Shown here: one piece after another, positions 57,959 to 64,000 of the stretch
How the letters are laid out: every line of letters starts with the position of its first letter
Numbering within the stretch: position 1 is the stretch's first letter
Assembly: GCF_943169845.1 (NCBI RefSeq)
Contig: NZ_CALPBW010000005.1
Location: forward strand, 1 to 64,000
Reading direction: 5' to 3'
DNA from: Peptoniphilus rachelemmaiella
GTDB lineage: Bacteria; Bacillota; Clostridia; Tissierellales; Peptoniphilaceae
Length of the DNA: 64,000 nt
The notes under the pieces: model-generated
Told to the model about the DNA's origin: nothing
Databases searched by the model: none
Seen by the model: the letters and a program-made list of their open reading frames with translations, nothing else
Made by a program: the position numbers and the translations under genes

Positions 57959-58321
57959 GTGAAACTAAATCCCGATAACGTTAGAAACCTACTTCTCCAT
58001 TTAGAGGAGAATCTTGATTTCGACAAAGCCATCCATCTACAAACCGGAGATACCGACCCCGACACCCTTTACACCGCTACAAAACTAATAGAAGCAGGCT
58101 ATCTCAAAGGTTCAGTCAGCCACTTTATCGGCGGAGGGTGCTTAATCATCATTCAGTCAATTACCTGGGACGGCCATCAGTTTTTAGATAATATTCGCCC
58201 CAAAACCAGCTGGGAAAAGACCAAAAGCCTATCAAAACAAATTGGCGGGGCATCTTTAGATATACTTAGCAAGATTGCAGTCAAAGTAACGACAGACCTG
58301 ATCAATGGTCAACTTGAATAG
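57959..58321 (+). CDS. DUF2513 phage protein
   Basis: A 120-aa protein of the DUF2513 family (KLNPDNVRNLLLHLEENLDFDKAIHL, then ATKLIEAGYLKGSV and TWDGHQFLDNIRPKTSWEKTK). Function unknown; members occur in phages and mobile elements. The GTG at 57959 has a strong AAAGGAG nine bases upstream, better than the ATG 21 codons earlier. It is on the plus strand between minus-strand early genes and its 3' end overlaps the 55-aa gene by 20 bases. Confidence 0.85.
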   Translation: MKLNPDNVRNLLLHLEENLDFDKAIHLQTGDTDPDTLYTATKLIEAGYLKGSVSHFIGGGCLIIIQSITWDGHQFLDNIRPKTSWEKTKSLSKQIGGASLDILSKIAVKVTTDLINGQLE

Positions 58322-58469
58322 AAACTTTTGACTTCGGTATTGTTAGCTCTAAACGTAAACGGAGAATATCCGAATCAGACGATAAAGAATAACTTGAAAC
58401 ATTTTCAATTTCTTTGTCGTCTATTTTTATACTGAAAACCTCGCTCGTATCTGTAATTGATAAATTCAT
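58302..58469 (-). CDS. Small hypothetical phage protein, 55 aa
   Basis: A short frame beginning MNLSITDTSEVFSIKIDDK, then EIENVSSYSLSSDSDILRLR and LELTIPKSKVSIQVDH. A very strong GGAAGGAGGAG precedes ATG 58469. It converges on DUF2513 with overlapping 3' ends. It could be the second gene of the Cro-side transcript. Confidence 0.65.
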   Translation of the reverse strand: MNLSITDTSEVFSIKIDDKEIENVSSYSLSSDSDILRLRLELTIPKSKVSIQVDH

Positions 58470-58585
58470 CACTCACTCCTCCTTCCTTGCAACTCCATTC
58501 CGTACATCCGGCCTTCCCTGCAACCACGTGCTATAGAGGAAGCGACGTGATTGACGTAGTATATAGGTAGAACGGAAAGGCGCTA

Positions 58586-58600
58586 TACAAGTTATTTGTA
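58586..58600. promoter_or_regulatory. Distal operator copy (O5)
   Basis: TACAA at 58586-58590 and TTGTA at 58596-58600 with a 5-base centre match the operator consensus of the switch region. It covers the stop codon of the Cro-like gene and lies upstream of the 55-aa gene. Confidence 0.6.
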
Positions 58601-58807
58601 CTCTTCAGGCAAAAAAATTTCATTGATTTCAACATCAAATAGCTTTGAAAGCTTTATCGCCTTCTTTAGGTCAATATTATTTCCATTTCTCTCGAGTTCT
58701 GAATAGCCTGAAACTCCGCTATATCCAAGATAATCGGCCATGAATTGCTGAGTGTATCCTTTTTCTACTCGAAGGTTCTTTAACCGATTTTGTAATTTAA
58801 CTTCCAT
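58592..58807 (-). CDS. Cro-like XRE regulator
   Basis: A 71-aa protein that is almost wholly an XRE helix-turn-helix (RLKNLRVEKGYTQQFMADYLGYSGVSGYSELERNGNNIDLKKAIKLSKLF). It is the first gene from the leftward promoter, divergent from the CI-like repressor. The leader has TTGGAGGTG before ATG 58807. An operator copy covers its stop codon. By position it plays the Cro part in the switch. Confidence 0.82.
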   Translation of the reverse strand: MEVKLQNRLKNLRVEKGYTQQFMADYLGYSGVSGYSELERNGNNIDLKKAIKLSKLFDVEINEIFLPEEYK

Positions 58808-58832
58808 AATTCACCTCCAAGCGCCTTCGAAT

Positions 58833-58902
58833 TACAACTATCTTGTATTTATGGTATTACATGTTACTTGTACTGTCAAGGCATTTTTACAATATTCTTG
58901 TA
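58833..58902. promoter_or_regulatory. Operator cluster O1, O2, O3 of the lysogeny switch
   Basis: Three copies of TACAA-N5-TTGTA: O1 58833-58847 (exact), O2 58858-58872 (TACAT left arm, one change), O3 58888-58902 (exact). Centre spacings are 25 and 30 bp. O2 lies in the spacer of the leftward promoter, O1 downstream of its -10, O3 upstream of its -35. Confidence 0.82.
58851..58879 (-). promoter_or_regulatory. Leftward early promoter (PR-type)
   Basis: On the minus strand TTGACA (58879-58874) and TACCAT (58856-58851) are separated by 17 bp. Operator O2 fills the spacer, so repressor binding would block RNA polymerase. The promoter drives the Cro-like gene and probably the early genes beyond. 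Confidence 0.75.
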
Positions 58903-58917
58903 TTTCTTACAGAATGT

Positions 58918-58955
58918 TTGAAATTCATCCGTCAATCGAATACAATTTATTTGTA
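58918..58955 (+). promoter_or_regulatory. Repressor promoter (PRM-type) with operator O4
   Basis: TTGAAA (58918-58923) and TACAAT (58941-58946) are 17 bp apart on the plus strand. Operator O4 (58941-58955) begins in the -10 hexamer, so bound protein would shut the promoter: autoregulation of the repressor or repression by the Cro-like protein. AGGAGGAG and the repressor ATG follow. Confidence 0.75.
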
Positions 58956-58965
58956 GGAGGAGATT

Positions 58966-59334
58966 ATGAATACTATTGGGGCACGCATTAAAAAACTTCG
59001 ACAGGACAACAACATGACCCAAAAGGAACTTGCTGAGAAAATGTCGGTTAGATTGTCAACTATCTCAAATTATGAGACTGGATACAGCACACCAGACATT
59101 AATACATTGGCCAAGTTAGCAACCATTTTTGACACTTCCATCGATTACCTAGCCGGTAAATCTGAAGTTAGTTCTAATCGCGACCCTCTCCTCGAAGGCT
59201 TTCCGGAAGGCGTGCAAATCTTACGCCGGGCCAACCGCGAACTCACTCCGGAAGCGAAAGCGAAAATGATCGAAATCGCCAACATCTTCATCGATAGCGT
59301 CAACGCGAAAGAAAACGAAGAAAAAAATAAGTAA
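58966..59334 (+). CDS. CI-like XRE repressor
   Basis: A 122-aa XRE-family repressor (GARIKKLRQDNNMTQKELAEKMSVRLSTISNYETGYSTPDINTLAKLATIF) with a short helical tail in place of a LexA-type peptidase domain. Repressors of this sort are inactivated by an ImmA/IrrE protease, and such a gene lies at 63627. It starts behind TAGGAGGAG and the operator-promoter region. Confidence 0.87.
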   Translation: MNTIGARIKKLRQDNNMTQKELAEKMSVRLSTISNYETGYSTPDINTLAKLATIFDTSIDYLAGKSEVSSNRDPLLEGFPEGVQILRRANRELTPEAKAKMIEIANIFIDSVNAKENEEKNK

Positions 59335-59364
59335 TTTTTACTACATATGTGATAGGAGGAATTT

Positions 59365-59760
59365 ATGCCACAAGATCTTGCACCTTTAGCCTGGACTTTC
59401 AGTTCTGAGTGTACCGTCCCTGCTGACATACGTGAGCTCTTAATACCGGGTGAAACAGCTGTTTGTGCCTATTCAACGATTCGTGATTGTGCAATTTTTA
59501 CAAACAAGAGACTTATCGTAAGAGATGCACAAGGATTGACCGGGAAAAAGGTTGAAATTTACTCTCTCCCCTACAGTTCCATCATTATGTATTCTTCCGA
59601 AAACGCAGGTACGCTAGATTGGAATTCGGAGATTGAACTCTGGACAAAAGCCGGTCGTATAAAAATAAAACTTGGCACCAAAGCCGACGTTCGGAAACTT
59701 GACAGAATCATCGCTGCCGCTACTCTAGGTGGCGATTTATCAGACTTTAAAGAAGAATAA
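59365..59760 (+). CDS. Bacterial PH-domain protein
   Basis: A 131-aa protein whose body (ETAVCAYSTIRDCAIFTNKRLIVRDAQGLTGKKVEIYSLPYSSIIMYSSENAG) is the YvbH/YokE-like bacterial PH domain. The role of these proteins is unclear, with suggestions of envelope stress or phage-related function. GGAGGAATTT precedes the ATG, 30 bases past the repressor gene, so the two are probably co-transcribed. A terminator follows directly. Confidence 0.8.
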   Translation: MPQDLAPLAWTFSSECTVPADIRELLIPGETAVCAYSTIRDCAIFTNKRLIVRDAQGLTGKKVEIYSLPYSSIIMYSSENAGTLDWNSEIELWTKAGRIKIKLGTKADVRKLDRIIAAATLGGDLSDFKEE

Positions 59761-59785
59761 AAAAGGGCACTAGCCCTTTTAAAAA
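59759..59785 (+). terminator. Terminator after the PH-domain gene
   Basis: AAAAGGGC (59761-59768) pairs with GCCCTTTT (59773-59780) around a 4-base loop and the T-run is within the arm. It starts one base after the stop codon and closes the repressor transcript; the symmetric A- and T-runs could serve both strands. Confidence 0.7.
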
Positions 59786-59846
59786 TCACTTTGTGTCGAA
59801 CATAGGTTTTATTATTCTCTCTTATTATCGGAAAGGAGCCTCCCTC

Positions 59847-60455
59847 ATGACTGCAGGGTCACATGGTCAACTTTATTCCATCTACTATGAAACCTTCCTA
59901 AAATTCACAAAAGATCGAACGATCTTTAAAACCGGTAACGCATTTTTCGCTCATTATAGAGATAAGCCGAACTTGCCGTTTTACTATTCAGAAATTACGG
60001 ATTTTACCGTTCAATTTCTCGGGTTCCATATTTCAGACCTTCTATTCTTAGGCAATCCCATCCATGAAAATGGAGATACCATAATATGGAACAGGCATCA
60101 CGCTTATAATTCCATGAAGTACGGAGAAACAACAGCCGAAGATGATGAGTTATTCTCCGATCTGACAAAGCAATATGACATAGAATTATTGGAGGCCTTT
60201 GAAAGAGAGTTTACAAATTTTTGTTTATTCAACGAATCATTCTTTTCGAATCCCATGTTCCTCAATTCAGGTAACATTAATCCCTTTAGCCTGGCTTCTA
60301 TCCGATACATTGAAAATCAATTGGATGATACAGACCATGTCAATGTTCTCTTAAAAAGAAACGACGGCGAAGAACTTTCTTTGCTGCTCAACAGACATAA
60401 CCTCGATGCTGTAATCAATTCGTTTGAAGCCATTCGTAACAGATTTGAGGACTGA
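59847..60455 (+). CDS. Unknown prophage protein, 202 aa
   Basis: Starts at ATG 59847 behind GGAAAGGAG. The sequence (SHGQLYSIYYETFLKFTKDRTIFKTGNAFFAHYRDKPNLPFYYSEITDF; DTIIWNRHHAYNSMKYGETT; ELLEAFEREFTNFCLFNESFF) suggests a soluble alpha/beta protein. No family recognised. Position in the lysogeny-side accessory block makes it a candidate lysogenic-conversion or phage-exclusion gene. Confidence 0.6.
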   Translation: MTAGSHGQLYSIYYETFLKFTKDRTIFKTGNAFFAHYRDKPNLPFYYSEITDFTVQFLGFHISDLLFLGNPIHENGDTIIWNRHHAYNSMKYGETTAEDDELFSDLTKQYDIELLEAFEREFTNFCLFNESFFSNPMFLNSGNINPFSLASIRYIENQLDDTDHVNVLLKRNDGEELSLLLNRHNLDAVINSFEAIRNRFED

Positions 60456-60456
60456 T

Positions 60457-60978
60457 ATGCCGAATGAAGCTAAAGTTATAGATTTTCATATAATACAAAA
60501 CTCCTCAAACAACGCATCTCCTTTCTTTACTGAAAAGACCGTCAATTCTAGGTATACTATAGATAATGGATGGAATGATAGCGAAGGGAGAGATGATATG
60601 GACAATAGATCACTGGAAAAATACATTGAAAAAATGGAACTGGATAATAGAGAGTTTAGAAATGAGATGCGCGAACGTGATATGCGTGCCGAAGAAAGAT
60701 TACAACAAATGGAATCGCGCATAGCGGAATCTCAACGGCAATCTGAAGAGAGGTTTAATCAATCAGTCGCTGAAATGAAGACGATTCTATATCAGACACA
60801 AGAGAAGGTACAAGATATAGAAAAACAAAATCGTCACTTTAACATTGCTAACCTCGTTGCGATTATAGGATTAGTCATTGCTTTCCTCGTAGGGCTCACC
60901 CAAATCAACCAAGGCTTCACTTCAATAATTCAATCGATCACATCGGAATCAACCACAACACAAGTACAACAACGATAA
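60457..60978 (+). CDS. Coiled-coil membrane-anchored prophage protein
   Basis: From ATG 60457 a 173-aa protein is read; a second good start is ATG 60598 (126 aa) behind AAGGGAGAG. The core is a long charged coiled coil (KYIEKMELDNREFRNEMRERDMRAEERLQQMESRIAESQRQSEER) followed by one membrane helix (NIANLVAIIGLVIAFLVGLTQI). The shape recalls membrane proteins with a cytosolic coil found beside phage repressors, with no known role. It follows the unknown 202-aa gene by one base. Confidence 0.65.
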   Translation: MPNEAKVIDFHIIQNSSNNASPFFTEKTVNSRYTIDNGWNDSEGRDDMDNRSLEKYIEKMELDNREFRNEMRERDMRAEERLQQMESRIAESQRQSEERFNQSVAEMKTILYQTQEKVQDIEKQNRHFNIANLVAIIGLVIAFLVGLTQINQGFTSIIQSITSESTTTQVQQR

Positions 60979-61093
60979 ACCCCTTGCCTTTACCACACGC
61001 CAACGCAGCAAGACGTTCGCCTTTACTATGTTAAGCCGCCTTCGCCGTTAAATAGACGTAGACTCGTATGTTCGATTACATAAGGAGGATCCC

Positions 61094-61891
61094 ATGAAAA
61101 AAATATTGCTCCCGTTACTCTTATCAATCACCTTGATCACCGCATGTTCAAACCAAGAAGTAGCAAAGAACGATGCTGCTTCGAATGCGCCCGCCAAATC
61201 AGCTGCAGCTCACGAGAAGATTGATGAAAAAAAACTTCAAGAATTTTACGAAGGCTACAATGAAAATAGTTCCATTTCTGCTACTTACGATATAGAAAAG
61301 ATGGCAATCAATCATACCGTGTTTAACATCGACGGAGCTCACCCCACTTTCACTACCAAGTTTTTAGATGCTGCGTTTAATGAGGCAAAGCTATTAAAAG
61401 AAAATGTTTCTCCCAACTTTACGCTGTATTTTTATTTCGAAGACGATTCTGAAACGCCGTTCCTTGTGGTTAAGCAAGACAAAATTATTTCCAAAACCGT
61501 CGATTTTGAAGAGGTTGTCAACTATGAGACGAATTTTGCTTCTTTCGACATGAAAAACTTCGAATTCCTTGATGGAAAATATGGAAAGAAAATCTTGGCC
61601 ATTACCATGGACTACGTAAATAAAACAGACCAGCCGCAAAACCCTTGGTTAAACTTTGCTACTGCCATTAAGGGCGAGCAAGAAACGGATGCTACTGTCG
61701 ACTTACTAAATGGGGCGAATGGCTTATTCCCTGATGATTATAAGCCCGAAGCGGTCAAAATGGGCGAAACTCAAGTAAAGCCTAACACGCCGGTTGAAGT
61801 TGTCGTTGGTTTCCAACTGAACGATCCTTCGGCCAATGTCTATCTAAGGTCCATGTTCGGCAATGACTTTGAAAAGTTGATCGAACAATAG
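61094..61891 (+). CDS. DUF5067-type lipoprotein
   Basis: A 265-aa secreted lipoprotein. The signal peptide KKILLPLLLSITLITAC ends in a lipobox with C18. After an Ala/Ser/Asn-rich linker the domain includes KKILAITMDYVNKTDQPQNPWLNF and GFQLNDPSANVYLRSMFG, matching the DUF5067 pattern. Membrane-anchored lipoproteins in this prophage position can block superinfecting phage DNA entry. AAGGAGGATCCC precedes the ATG. The 60979-61093 gap holds no gene. Confidence 0.78.
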   Translation: MKKILLPLLLSITLITACSNQEVAKNDAASNAPAKSAAAHEKIDEKKLQEFYEGYNENSSISATYDIEKMAINHTVFNIDGAHPTFTTKFLDAAFNEAKLLKENVSPNFTLYFYFEDDSETPFLVVKQDKIISKTVDFEEVVNYETNFASFDMKNFEFLDGKYGKKILAITMDYVNKTDQPQNPWLNFATAIKGEQETDATVDLLNGANGLFPDDYKPEAVKMGETQVKPNTPVEVVVGFQLNDPSANVYLRSMFGNDFEKLIEQ

Positions 61892-61963
61892 CCTGGATTA
61901 GGAAGATAACTAGGCCCTACCTTCGTTCTCAGGGTAAGAACTCGCGATAATTATGAGGCTATC

Positions 61964-61995
61964 TTATTCCAATTTATTTCGATTTATTGGAATAA
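61964..61995. repeat. 10-bp perfect inverted repeat before the ncRNA promoter
   Basis: TTATTCCAAT (61964-61973) and ATTGGAATAA (61986-61995) are perfect complements around a 12-base centre. It ends five bases before TTGACA of the next promoter. No T-run follows, so operator use or a weak hairpin for the lipoprotein transcript is more likely. Confidence 0.55.
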
Positions 61996-61999
61996 AGAA

Positions 62000-62027
62000 T
62001 TGACAACTCGTCAAGGATTGTTACAAT
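62000..62027 (+). promoter_or_regulatory. Promoter of structured RNA 1
   Basis: TTGACA (62000-62005) and TACAAT (62022-62027) with a 16-bp spacer. No gene with a start codon follows; the predicted transcript is the hairpin-rich RNA at 62033-62117. Confidence 0.7.
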
Positions 62028-62032
62028 TATTT

Positions 62033-62117
62033 TAAGAGGGAAACCTCTGAAACTGATATCAATCCTTGGAAGTAGCTCCCCCACCATACGGGGACGGGCA
62101 AAACCAAGGATTTTTTG
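62033..62117 (+). ncRNA. Structured non-coding RNA 1 upstream of abi
   Basis: The transcript would fold into hairpin 1, AGAGG-GAAA-CCTCT (62035-62048), with a GNRA tetraloop, and a 9-bp outer stem AATCCTTGG (62061-62069) with CCAAGGATT (62104-62112). Inside lies a small hairpin TCCCC...GGGGA (62077-62094). Six Ts follow (62111-62116), so the outer stem also works as terminator. No ribosome binding site and frame fit. A conserved RNA motif is known upstream of AbiF-type genes; whether this is it needs a covariance search. Confidence 0.65.
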
Positions 62118-62185
62118 CTTTAAAGAAAAACGAACCCGACAATACCGGTAGATAGAAAAACACATTAATAAATTCGTAAAACTGC

Positions 62186-62214
62186 TTGCAAAAACAAAAC
62201 CTAGAATGTAAAAT
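62186..62214 (+). promoter_or_regulatory. Promoter of the abi leader
   Basis: TTGCAA (62186-62191), 17-bp spacer, TAAAAT (62209-62214). The transcript would start near 62221 and contain the leader hairpins and the abi gene. Confidence 0.65.
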
Positions 62215-62220
62215 GAGGAT

Positions 62221-62298
62221 AGAGATTAGCAGTAAGTATCCCAAGGGAACTTGCTTGCGGAAAAGGCCCTCCATTCTAGTAGTGGAGGACCTTTTTTT
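62221..62298 (+). ncRNA. Abi leader RNA with terminator that hides the ribosome binding site
   Basis: Two hairpins. The first (about 62229-62258) has arms with AAGT-TCC and GGA-ACTT. The second has arms 62265-62273 and 62283-62291 (eight of nine pairs) followed by seven Ts (62292-62298), a complete intrinsic terminator. Its right arm contains GGAGG (62284-62288), the only ribosome binding site for the abi ATG at 62299. The leader therefore yields a short RNA by default, and both transcription and translation of abi depend on opening the stem. Confidence 0.7.
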
Positions 62299-63240
62299 AT
62301 GAAACCTTTTAAAACGTTAAGCGAACAAATTGATATTTTGAGAGAACGTGAACTCATAATCACAGACGAAGAAAAAACCGCCAATTACATTTTGCACAAT
62401 AACTATTACAATCTTATTAACTGCTACAGTAAGTACTTCTTTGAGAAAAAGGACTTCTATCAACAAGGCACGACATTTGATCATATTGTTGCTGTGCACC
62501 ACTTCGATAAGAATCTAAAATCAACACTATTTAAATTCATTATAGATGCGGAAAAAACCTTTAAATCAATATTTGCGTACCGTTATAGCGAATTTTATAG
62601 GGATATTCCATTTCCCTACCTTGACATTAACCACTACGAGGACAAGCAAAAACTGAATGCCTCTAAAAATATCTCGCAACTATCTAATATTATTCTAAAA
62701 CAGTCTAGAAATCGTGATAACTCAATTTCCCACTATGTAAGCGAACACCATGATGTCCCTATGTGGGTTCTGGTTAACAATCTAACCTTTGGCCAGACTT
62801 CAAAACTCTATTCAATTATGACTATGTCTCTTCGAAATACGATATCCAAAGATCACAGCTATTTTTTGAAAGAAAACTGCAAAAATCAGGCCGCTATTCT
62901 CCAGGCCGATCAGCTTGAATCTTATTTAATAAACATTGTAGAATTGAGGAACATCATTGCCCATAATAACAAAGTAATTGACTACAAATGCATTAAGAAC
63001 AATAGATTCAACCGTTATTTGCATGCCCCCTATAACATTGATCAACGTGCACCTAGAAACGATGTTTATAATGCCTTTCTCACTATGCAATGTTTTTTAA
63101 CCCCAAATGAATTTACGCAATTAAATAATGCGATCGTGAAGCGTTTTAATAAACTCAGACGCCACATCGATCTCAACGCCTACAAAAGAATCTGTGACGA
63201 CTTAGGCTTCCCCGAGCAGTTAGAGAAATTACAACAGTAG
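62299..63240 (+). CDS. Abi_2 (AbiD/AbiF) abortive-infection protein with HEPN motif
   Basis: A 313-aa Abi_2 family protein. Family marks are KTLSEQIDILRERELIITDEEKTANYILHNNYYNLI, DAEKTFKSIFAYRYSEFY and PMWVLVNNLTFGQTSKLYSIM. A HEPN-type RNase motif R217-x4-H222 lies in VELRNIIAHNN. AbiF proteins stop phage growth by killing or arresting the infected cell and work with a structured RNA; they share the HEPN fold of Cas13. I start at ATG 62299, right after the leader terminator. The earlier in-frame codons belong to the RNA. Confidence 0.88.
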   Translation: MKPFKTLSEQIDILRERELIITDEEKTANYILHNNYYNLINCYSKYFFEKKDFYQQGTTFDHIVAVHHFDKNLKSTLFKFIIDAEKTFKSIFAYRYSEFYRDIPFPYLDINHYEDKQKLNASKNISQLSNIILKQSRNRDNSISHYVSEHHDVPMWVLVNNLTFGQTSKLYSIMTMSLRNTISKDHSYFLKENCKNQAAILQADQLESYLINIVELRNIIAHNNKVIDYKCIKNNRFNRYLHAPYNIDQRAPRNDVYNAFLTMQCFLTPNEFTQLNNAIVKRFNKLRRHIDLNAYKRICDDLGFPEQLEKLQQ

Positions 63241-63255
63241 CAGTTAACTAGAAAT

Positions 63256-63290
63256 AAAAAAGCCCCTACCCTGCTGCAACAGGGTATAGC
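63256..63290 (-). terminator. Terminator-like hairpin after abi
   Basis: TACCCTG (63267-63273) pairs with CAGGGTA (63280-63286), and flanking AGC/GCT pairs extend it. The A-run is on the left, so it would end minus-strand transcription entering abi; for the plus strand it is only a hairpin. It shields abi from antisense reading. Confidence 0.55.
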
Positions 63291-63351
63291 TGCATCGGCA
63301 ATTATCAAACCGCGATATTCAATTTGAATGAATGTACTCTCCATTTTCGTG

Positions 63352-63379
63352 TTTACAAATCGAAGTCTCATGGTACAAT
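63352..63379 (+). promoter_or_regulatory. Promoter of structured RNA 3
   Basis: TTTACA (63352-63357) and TACAAT (63374-63379) with a 16-bp spacer. The predicted start is near 63386, in front of two hairpins and no open reading frame with a ribosome binding site. Confidence 0.6.
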
Positions 63380-63385
63380 CATATT

Positions 63386-63448
63386 AACAATGTGACTGGA
63401 CAGGGTTTCTGTCCGACCATGAAGGCTTCCGGTGCGGAAGCCTTTTTG
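63386..63448 (+). ncRNA. Short structured RNA downstream of abi
   Basis: A roughly 60-nt transcript with hairpin GGACAG-N5-CTGTCC (63398-63414) and a perfect 10-bp terminator stem (63422-63431 with 63435-63444, 3-base loop) followed by Ts. It lies between abi and the ImmA-type gene and has its own promoter. No coding capacity beyond a few codons. Function unknown; candidate regulatory RNA or leader of the downstream gene. Confidence 0.55.
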
Positions 63449-63533
63449 TGTTACGTAGAGAAACAGACGTCTAACTGAAAATGCCTTTTCAGTGATTTAA
63501 CATGAGCCTAGTTAACGTCAAATAGCCATATTA

Positions 63534-63590
63534 AGGATAGAGTCACCTCTTCCCTGTTTTAACAGGTGAGGTGCTATCCTATTATTTTTC
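63534..63590 (+). terminator. Long three-part hairpin before the ImmA gene
   Basis: AGGATAG (63534-63540) pairs with CTATCCT (63574-63580); inside, CACCTC pairs with GAGGTG and CTGTT with AACAG, giving 18 pairs in a nearly continuous stem. ATTATTTTT follows, so it can act as terminator or attenuator for the ImmA transcript, 36 bases before its ribosome binding site. Confidence 0.6.
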
Positions 63591-63626
63591 ACGTCTTTAA
63601 GAACAAACGTTTTGAAAGGTGACCTT

Positions 63627-64000
63627 ATGACGCAAGAAACCATCGAGCAGCTGGCAGCCAATCTGCTACTTTCAACAGAACACCCCCTGCACTTCCCCAC
63701 CGACTTGAAAAAAGTCGCAAAAAAACTGAATGCCTCCATCGTTAAAAGCAATCTTCGCGGTGAAAGTGGCTACATTCTTCAATACAAAAATCACTTCCTC
63801 ATCTGCATCGACACGGAAAACCACCGCGTAACCCACAATCGCTTCACAATTGCACACGAACTGTCCCACATAGCATTGGGCCACCTCGACAAACGGAAGC
63901 ACATCCCTTATGCGCAAAAAGAGCAAGAAGCCAATGATATGGCCGGGGCCCTACTCATGCCCTTTCATTTCATGGTCGCTTACAGAGACTATGAAACCCG
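63627..64000 (+). CDS. ImmA/IrrE-family metallopeptidase, truncated by window edge
   Basis: From ATG 63627 (GAAAGGTGACC upstream) 124 codons are open to the edge. The zinc site is the HExxH of RFTIAHELSHIALGH, with the further ligand expected in KEQEANDMAGALLMP. ImmA cleaves the XRE repressor of its element and thereby triggers induction. Its partner here is most likely the CI-like repressor at 58966, which lacks a self-cleavage domain. The C-terminal part is outside the window. Confidence 0.9.
   Translation, partial: MTQETIEQLAANLLLSTEHPLHFPTDLKKVAKKLNASIVKSNLRGESGYILQYKNHFLICIDTENHRVTHNRFTIAHELSHIALGHLDKRKHIPYAQKEQEANDMAGALLMPFHFMVAYRDYET

Follow-up and report, generated by a model that had tools for sequence, protein, structure and literature searches.

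The window, by which we mean the whole stretch of 64,000 nucleotides that was analyzed, carries near its end a gene for an Abi_2 (AbiD/AbiF) HEPN protein (62299..63240, with an ATG at 62299 and a stop codon ending at 63240; 313 aa). Two structured RNAs, RNA1 and RNA2, lie upstream of it, and downstream lies a third promoter-RNA-terminator unit (63352-63449), absent from the first-pass annotation of this DNA, whose transcript we call RNA3; all features described here read on the forward strand. RNA3 is followed by a strong hairpin (63534..63590; fold z=-5.6 on 63532-63592), which is kept after the Abi_2 gene of a sister prophage in the genome G678, and by an ImmA/IrrE-like M78 peptidase gene (63627..64000, continuing beyond the window end; PF06114, 1.2e-11). 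An integrase-like gene is found 3' of the peptidase gene, past the window end, in the ORF list of the extended locus (L095). Within a prophage-like region, the AbiF unit sits at the lysogeny-integrase end, in agreement with the prophage setting proposed earlier, and Abi genes are also located immediately 5' of the integrase in the listed Streptococcus prophages IPP16, IPP38, Javan64, and Javan333. On the 5' side of RNA1, a gene with a lipoprotein-like signal and a DUF5067 domain (PF16729, E=6e-9) occupies 61094-61891; a putative lipoprotein likewise precedes the Abi gene of Javan333.

The AbiF protein and its leader RNA

The 313-residue protein matches the Pfam Abi_2 profile PF07751 with E=6e-35 and 121.7 bits (cut-off, 25.6) and the PADLOC AbiD profile with 5.3e-49 and 165.4 bits; an NCBIfam search returned nothing at E<=0.01. 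Its HEPN dyad reads R217-N218-I-I-A-H222 (RNIIAH), which has the RX4-6H form, and the R, N, and H of the motif are invariant in all 57 aligned Abi_2 homologues (64 proteins minus 7 shorter than 240 aa). The assignment of an Abi_2 protein with an RX4H motif at R217-H222 was thus correct. The best solved relative is PDB 8vz6 (phmmer 3e-12, residues 2-184), the PbAbiF-ncRNA complex (PMC12737573); PbAbiF is a sequence homologue with the same HEPN dyad, there R210/H215 (PMC12373285), whereas its RNA differs in sequence and the window protein is known from sequence. Among the matches listed for the protein are 38 plasmid records and 62 phage records, the latter mainly from Streptococcus prophages and satellites; identity in these listed matches does not exceed 42%, the value reached by the Javan333 protein. 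A protein-similarity search of genome contigs and viral contigs gave no close relative, and blastn of 58000-64000 against phages gave no match. Two further Abi_2 genes are present in the same genome on other contigs. The terminator region behind AbiF (63254-63286) has a 97% copy near an Abi_2 gene on contig C11 of this genome and two copies (92-94%) in genome G675.

Two promoter-driven structured RNAs had been described 5' of the Abi_2 gene, and this description holds. RNA1 is preceded by a promoter-like site at 62000..62027 (TTGACA-16-TACAAT with a TG; 11/12 in a consensus scan) and its folding was equaled by none of 200 shuffles (z=-3.4 on 62029-62117), while RNA2 is preceded by TTGCAA-17-TAAAAT at 62186..62214 (9/12) and was equaled in folding by 1 of 200 (z=-4.3 on 62222-62298); both end in terminators. 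The promoter-like site of RNA2 is weak by itself, since the consensus scan found 9 sites against 5.9 (sd 2.7) in shuffles, and the 5' starts of both RNAs were placed from the promoter positions.

RNA2 (62221..62298) is the probable AbiF-type leader. It consists of a hairpin (62229-62258) and then a terminator hairpin (62268-62288) followed by T7, which the terminator scan listed. GGAGG (62284-62288) lies in the 3' arm of this terminator, and the T7 tract runs directly up to the ATG. Of 63 Abi loci, 47, that of the window among them, have a promoter followed by a hairpin and a T tract in the 180 nt before the gene, compared to 30 of 1260 shuffles, which bears out the claim that a leader RNA with a terminator stands directly 5' of the protein; the 63-locus count omits L069, which is without upstream DNA, and L041 is without a start. 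A Shine-Dalgarno-like box plus at least five T directly before the start was seen at 10 of the 63 loci, the window among them, and 9 of those 10, again including the window, have a complementary-looking pyrimidine box upstream. A buried Shine-Dalgarno sequence with a T tract against the start is hence a trait of the near relatives of this AbiF. RNA2 and the Javan333 leader also have a 12-mer in common, TCCCAAGGGAAC, a likeness reached by 2 of 5000 shuffles.

The covariance check proposed in the first-pass annotation gave an outcome listed there among the refuting ones: the Rfam abiF model (RF03085) had no match on 61900-62330 up to E=10, which places RNA2 outside RF03085. That family matched 2 of 20 other Abi_2 loci scanned, namely L063, on another contig of the same genome, and L078, in phage phiC2, and so covers little of the diversity of AbiF leaders. 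Our own model R2, for which the leaders of five related Abi genes were used, scored RNA2 at 5.9 bits (E=0.51), and RNAalifold on an alignment of 11 leaders (A1) gave 3 supported pairs only; because of these two results we claim no covariation for RNA2. Single-sequence folds inspected by eye do show a separate structured domain 5' of the terminator, both in RNA2 and in related leaders. From its place, its design, and the shared 12-mer, RNA2 is likely the partner RNA of AbiF, and the AbiF unit is an additional, diverged member of the already known RNA-HEPN defense kind.

The closest described counterpart is AbiF-RCd22 of the C. difficile prophages phi027 and phiC2 (PMC12373285), in which a prophage Abi_2 protein with a HEPN RNxxxH motif is likewise preceded directly by a promoter-driven RNA and a terminator in a read-through design. 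As that source describes it, RCd22 contains two RF03085 motifs and leaves a separate ribosome-binding site, whereas RNA2 does not match RF03085 and holds its Shine-Dalgarno sequence inside the terminator. The C. difficile unit is part of the lysis module, in contrast to the unit studied here, which lies near the integrase with two extra RNAs alongside.

RNA1, the TEG147 family, and NYN-domain RNase genes

RNA1 (62034..62117) is composed of a 5' hairpin (about 62035-62049) and a domain at 62057-62117 that matches Rfam RF03535, TEG147, with 58.1 bits (gathering threshold, 56.1; E=2.4e-9 over the whole window). Model R3, built without the window, scores it at 61.9 bits (E=6e-12). Judged by these sequence models, RNA1 is a TEG147 RNA and no abiF RNA; the latter identity is ruled out by the lack of an RF03085 match up to E=10, the TEG147 match taking its place. 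The predicted terminator is the outer 9-bp stem of the TEG147 fold together with the six T behind it; it is absent from the terminator-scan list because the loop enclosed by the stem is too large for the scan. The 5' hairpin occurs in the window and in some leaders of the NYN genes described below and is absent or weak in others, so that we do not claim it as conserved.

By covariance score, RNA1 joins the family of the TEG147 sRNA (RF03535; PMC7779021, PMC5826253, PMC3053349). Teg147, which we know from the literature and the Rfam family, is among the expressed sRNAs of Staphylococcus aureus (PMC5826253) and is given as derived from a genomic island (PMC3053349). The parts of these sources available to us name no partner for this genomic-island sRNA, whereas the family is tied here to genes for NYN-domain RNases. 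When viral and genome contigs were scanned for the pattern of the TEG147 core, nine stretches were obtained; three of these (L003, L007, and L008) fall within reading frames, do not show the fold, and were discounted as chance matches. An NYN-domain gene stands directly downstream of the core in L005, L006, L009, and L011; the L006 protein, P0001, matches Pfam NYN (2.5e-10) and belongs to phrog_5783, of unknown function. In S. schweitzeri (L010) the start of an NYN gene survives behind the RNA as a clear remnant (score 48 versus a shuffle mean of 15.9, 0/2000), and the viral stretch L004 has a TEG147-type RNA without an NYN gene. The L002 match scored 33.9 bits.

Model R3 was built from L005, L006, L009, L010, and L011 only, with the window and the loci found by protein excluded, and 15 further NYN loci were gathered by protein similarity alone. 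At 7 of these 15, R3 found a match with E<0.01 just upstream of the NYN gene. Of the 8 that it missed at this threshold, 3 had sub-threshold matches at the right place (L089, L094, and L092; E 0.2-0.57), and the remaining 5 gave no match at the expected place; by eye, a comparable stem with an inner hairpin and T tract is present in some of these five leaders, for example those of coliphage ev099 and a Proteus phage. Alignment A2 comprises 15 rows, including the window and L010, and omits six of the 19 NYN loci (L088-L093), whose cores were not alignable by eye. In it, all 12 pairs (8 in the outer stem and 4 in the inner stem) change on both sides, and pairing holds in 92.2% of cells. The score for covariation reaches 0.676, compared to 0.300 in shuffles (0/500) and at most 0.198 when slid; the hand-trimmed stem ends and the use of the alignment's own consensus structure bias these values in favor of covariation.

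An RNA-led search gave a similar picture. Across 291 genomes of the class, model R1 had matches at E<=0.01 in 17, one of them the genome of the window, and contexts were counted for the nine other matches of at least 39 bits, with 7 weaker ones (L106-L112) outside the count. An NYN gene adjoins five of the nine (L097, L098, L100, L103, and, with a broken frame, L101). This is far above background, since NYN genes of the TEG147-linked kind occur in 3 of 398 genomes of the phylum. The other four (L099, L102, L104, and L105) are without an NYN gene, which means that orphan TEG147-type RNAs recur. In L099, from the window's family, the RNA lies beside a HicB-like gene, in L104 beside an integrase-like ORF, and in L105 beside an NlpC/P60 gene. 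In L102 (1501-2018) it is found 63 nt upstream of a gene for a PBECR3 nuclease-like protein, followed by an integrase-like ORF, and this protein may possibly represent a third kind of RNase partner.

Taken at the level of sequence, TEG147-type RNAs recurrently stand just upstream of NYN-RNase genes in phages, plasmids, and bacteria, and they may neutralize the proteins encoded there. Our search of the open-licence literature, preprints excluded, found no publication linking TEG147 RNA to NYN genes, on their pairing, or on the orphan RNAs, which is weak evidence of absence; the Rfam type label "Cis-reg" on TEG147 suggests that the curators were aware of some downstream gene.

Coliphage ev099 carries its RNA-NYN unit (L091, 880-1870) between the phage repressor and an annotated antitermination protein N. 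Of 5426 E. coli genomes, 274 have a match to this unit, but only 73 over at least 80% of the query; many of the listed remaining matches cover the first ~470 bases only, as would be seen if the NYN gene had a different second half there.

At the locus itself, the next ORF 3' of RNA1 encodes Abi_2 and not NYN. The 41 contigs of the genome contain no match to PF01936 (NYN), for which the control search gave matches in 8 of 14 genomes, and none to P0001; with no NYN gene found in the genome, we regard RNA1 as an orphan. An NYN remnant behind RNA1 (62137-62165) was considered and rejected: its best score against nine NYN starts was 18 compared to a shuffle mean of 22.1 (p=0.98), and against L006 alone 755 of 2000 shuffles were as good. 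A blastn search of RNA1 against phages found no match. Conversely, all 64 Abi_2 loci other than the window lack a TEG147-type RNA at E<=0.01, the nearest match being one at L019 (E=0.019), far from the gene. The proposal that both RNAs belong to the AbiF unit is therefore not supported, since RNA1 is of a type that adjoins NYN-RNase genes and is found at none of the 64 other Abi_2 loci.

RNA3 and the sister prophage

RNA3 (63386..63449), a hairpin plus terminator, follows a promoter-like site at 63352..63379 (TTTACA-16-TACAAT; 10/12) and folds with z=-5.0 on 63379-63449. Among 101 relatives its sole match besides the own genome is in G678, of the same genus, at 90% over 121 bp. There it stands directly before a different, second Abi_2 gene (339 aa; Abi_2 1.6e-31 on the first 323 residues; RNRSAH), which is followed by the same M78 peptidase and integrase genes. 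The simplest view of RNA3 is hence that of an abiF-type leader that lacks its gene at this locus. The two copies have 8 differences in 71 nt, none of which disrupts the main hairpins: the hairpin of RNA3 is unchanged, and one terminator pair is altered on both sides with pairing kept.

The window prophage and that of G678 are collinear around two exchanges. In blastn blocks, the segment with RNA1, RNA2, and AbiF (61995..63321, 1327 bp) is replaced by 25 bp in G678, and among 8 genomes of the genus no other contained more of it than 31-38 bp of the segment end. In the second exchange, 46 nt (63466..63511) stand in the blastn alignment in place of the 1030 bp of G678 that hold the second Abi_2 gene; a search of these 46 nt for traces of that gene was negative, 962 of 1000 shuffles scoring as well. 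Gain or loss is assigned to each exchange by inference. The RNA1-AbiF segment is bordered on its left by an inverted repeat of 29 bp (61966-61994), which is identical in G678 and may mark an exchange point.

Probable orphan RNAs in a possible exchange slot

The unit had been said to look complete. This is true of the RNA2-AbiF module, which is intact, but not of the ensemble, in which RNA1 is a TEG147-type orphan and RNA3 follows with its own Abi_2 gene missing. We consider it the best reading, with a probability of roughly two in three, that the slot holds one intact RNA-HEPN module between two orphan RNAs and that modules come and go. The anatomy, the family assignments, the TEG147-NYN pairing, and the sister-prophage comparison can be read directly from the DNA. 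In this scenario, the slot beside the prophage integrase would gain and lose RNA-RNase modules; RNA1 would be the RNA of a module of the other type, a TEG147 RNA plus an NYN-domain RNase, and RNA3 that of another Abi_2 gene, in both cases with the protein lost and the promoter, fold, and terminator left.

The working of the intact module may be pictured after its homologues. In C. difficile, AbiF is toxic and requires R202/H207, and the RCd22 RNA, with its promoter and terminator upstream of abiF, represses in cis and binds in trans: premature termination yields the short RNA and read-through the mRNA, the RNA binds the HEPN dimer, and free AbiF arrests growth (PMC12373285). By analogy, transcription from the RNA2 promoter would mostly end at the terminator to give a free structured RNA, with occasional read-through producing AbiF mRNA, and the terminator hairpin probably restrains translation as well because the Shine-Dalgarno sequence lies in its 3' arm. 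Such a combination of terminator and Shine-Dalgarno sequence in one hairpin would be a control differing from the published C. difficile case. RNA2 would bind the HEPN dimer and block the RNase, and phage attack or loss of RNA2 would free it and halt the cell. Toxicity, RNA binding, neutralization, and phage defense are thus predicted for the AbiF unit from its homologues; for AbiF-RCd22 itself, PMC12373285 states that anti-phage activity was not demonstrated. The earlier proposal of an RNA-protein defense or toxin-antitoxin candidate is sustained in so far as the homologous systems are RNA-antitoxin modules (PMC12373285), but RNA1 probably falls outside the unit. The link of AbiF-type proteins to Cas13, also raised in the first-pass annotation, comes from PMC12373285 and PMC12737573.

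Several other explanations must be weighed against this reading. RNA1 might resemble TEG147 only through a chance likeness of its terminator hairpin, and its Rfam score is indeed just 2 bits above gathering; yet the score given by the independently built R3 and the 8 outer-stem and 4 inner-stem pairs that covary in the family make this highly improbable. More plausible, though still unlikely, is that RNA1 and RNA2 both belong to the AbiF system, a TEG147-type RNA having been recruited to control AbiF. The two RNAs and AbiF do share one 1327-bp segment that is absent from the sister prophage, and C. difficile RCd22 has two RNA motifs before abiF (PMC12373285), but RNA1 has its own promoter and ends before that of RNA2, and RNAs of its type, often found at NYN genes, occur at 0 of 64 other Abi_2 loci. 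A somewhat better, if still poor, chance is given to RNA2 being an attenuator leader of AbiF only, with no antitoxin role: its clearest features, the terminator and the buried Shine-Dalgarno sequence, are cis-acting, and it matches neither RF03085 nor R2. Against this, homologous AbiF RNAs bind the protein in trans (PMC12373285), and RNA2, like related leaders, has the separate domain 5' of the terminator seen by eye in single-sequence folds.

The one intact module between two orphans leaves the role of the orphans themselves to be judged, and here we see an even chance that they are neutral left-overs. A decaying module passes through an RNA-only stage because the toxin gene can go before its RNA and not after, and for the same reason, that the toxin must go before the antidote RNA, a neutral left-over is at least as likely as a function for RNA1 and RNA3. 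The NYN-start remnant behind the TEG147-type RNA of S. schweitzeri illustrates such decay, and RNA3 and the neighboring stretch differ from G678 to about the same degree (90% and 89%), as expected of a recent loss. On the other hand, RNA1 still has its promoter, its complete fold, and its U tract, and no trace of an NYN gene could be detected behind it, the hairpin of RNA3 is unchanged and its one changed terminator pair changed on both sides, and orphan TEG147-type RNAs recur, in four of the nine strong matches and in the viral L004. A more tentative proposal we hold to be possible but clearly short of even odds. TEG147-type RNA plus NYN RNase may form an undescribed prophage RNA-antitoxin system, an analogue of AbiF with its RNA, whose distribution reaches from Bacillota-type phages to coliphage-like, Thermus, and Campylobacter elements. 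Prophages might keep orphan RNAs of both types as antidotes against the RNases of rival prophages, and the window would then be an antidote-toxin-antidote array made up of an orphan NYN-type RNA, the intact RNA-AbiF unit, and an orphan abiF-type RNA.

As in the type III toxin-antitoxin system ToxIN, an RNA precedes an RNase gene and a terminator separates the two. ToxI RNA forms pseudoknots, and neither HEPN nor NYN is known to be related to the ToxN fold. ToxI is a tandem-repeat RNA, and phage PhiTE carries a pseudo-ToxI, an antitoxin-like RNA without a toxin that allows escape from the toxin (PMC3475682). Pseudo-ToxI is a precedent for a working orphan RNA; it is not homologous to RNA1 or RNA3, and the likeness is confined to being a toxin-less RNA.

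The interesting part of the locus, in our view, is the TEG147-NYN pairing together with the orphan RNAs. RNA1 ties a named, unexplained staphylococcal sRNA family, with strong covariation, to NYN-RNase genes in mobile elements, and if the proposal is true, the S. aureus sRNA Teg147 gains a first testable origin. Should orphan RNAs guard against the toxins of rival prophages, they would constitute a cheap immunity that genome annotation overlooks. In Streptococcus phage Javan85 (L083), an NYN gene is located between repressor and integrase, where IPP38 has its AbiF gene; this suggests a slot in which RNA-RNase modules are exchanged.
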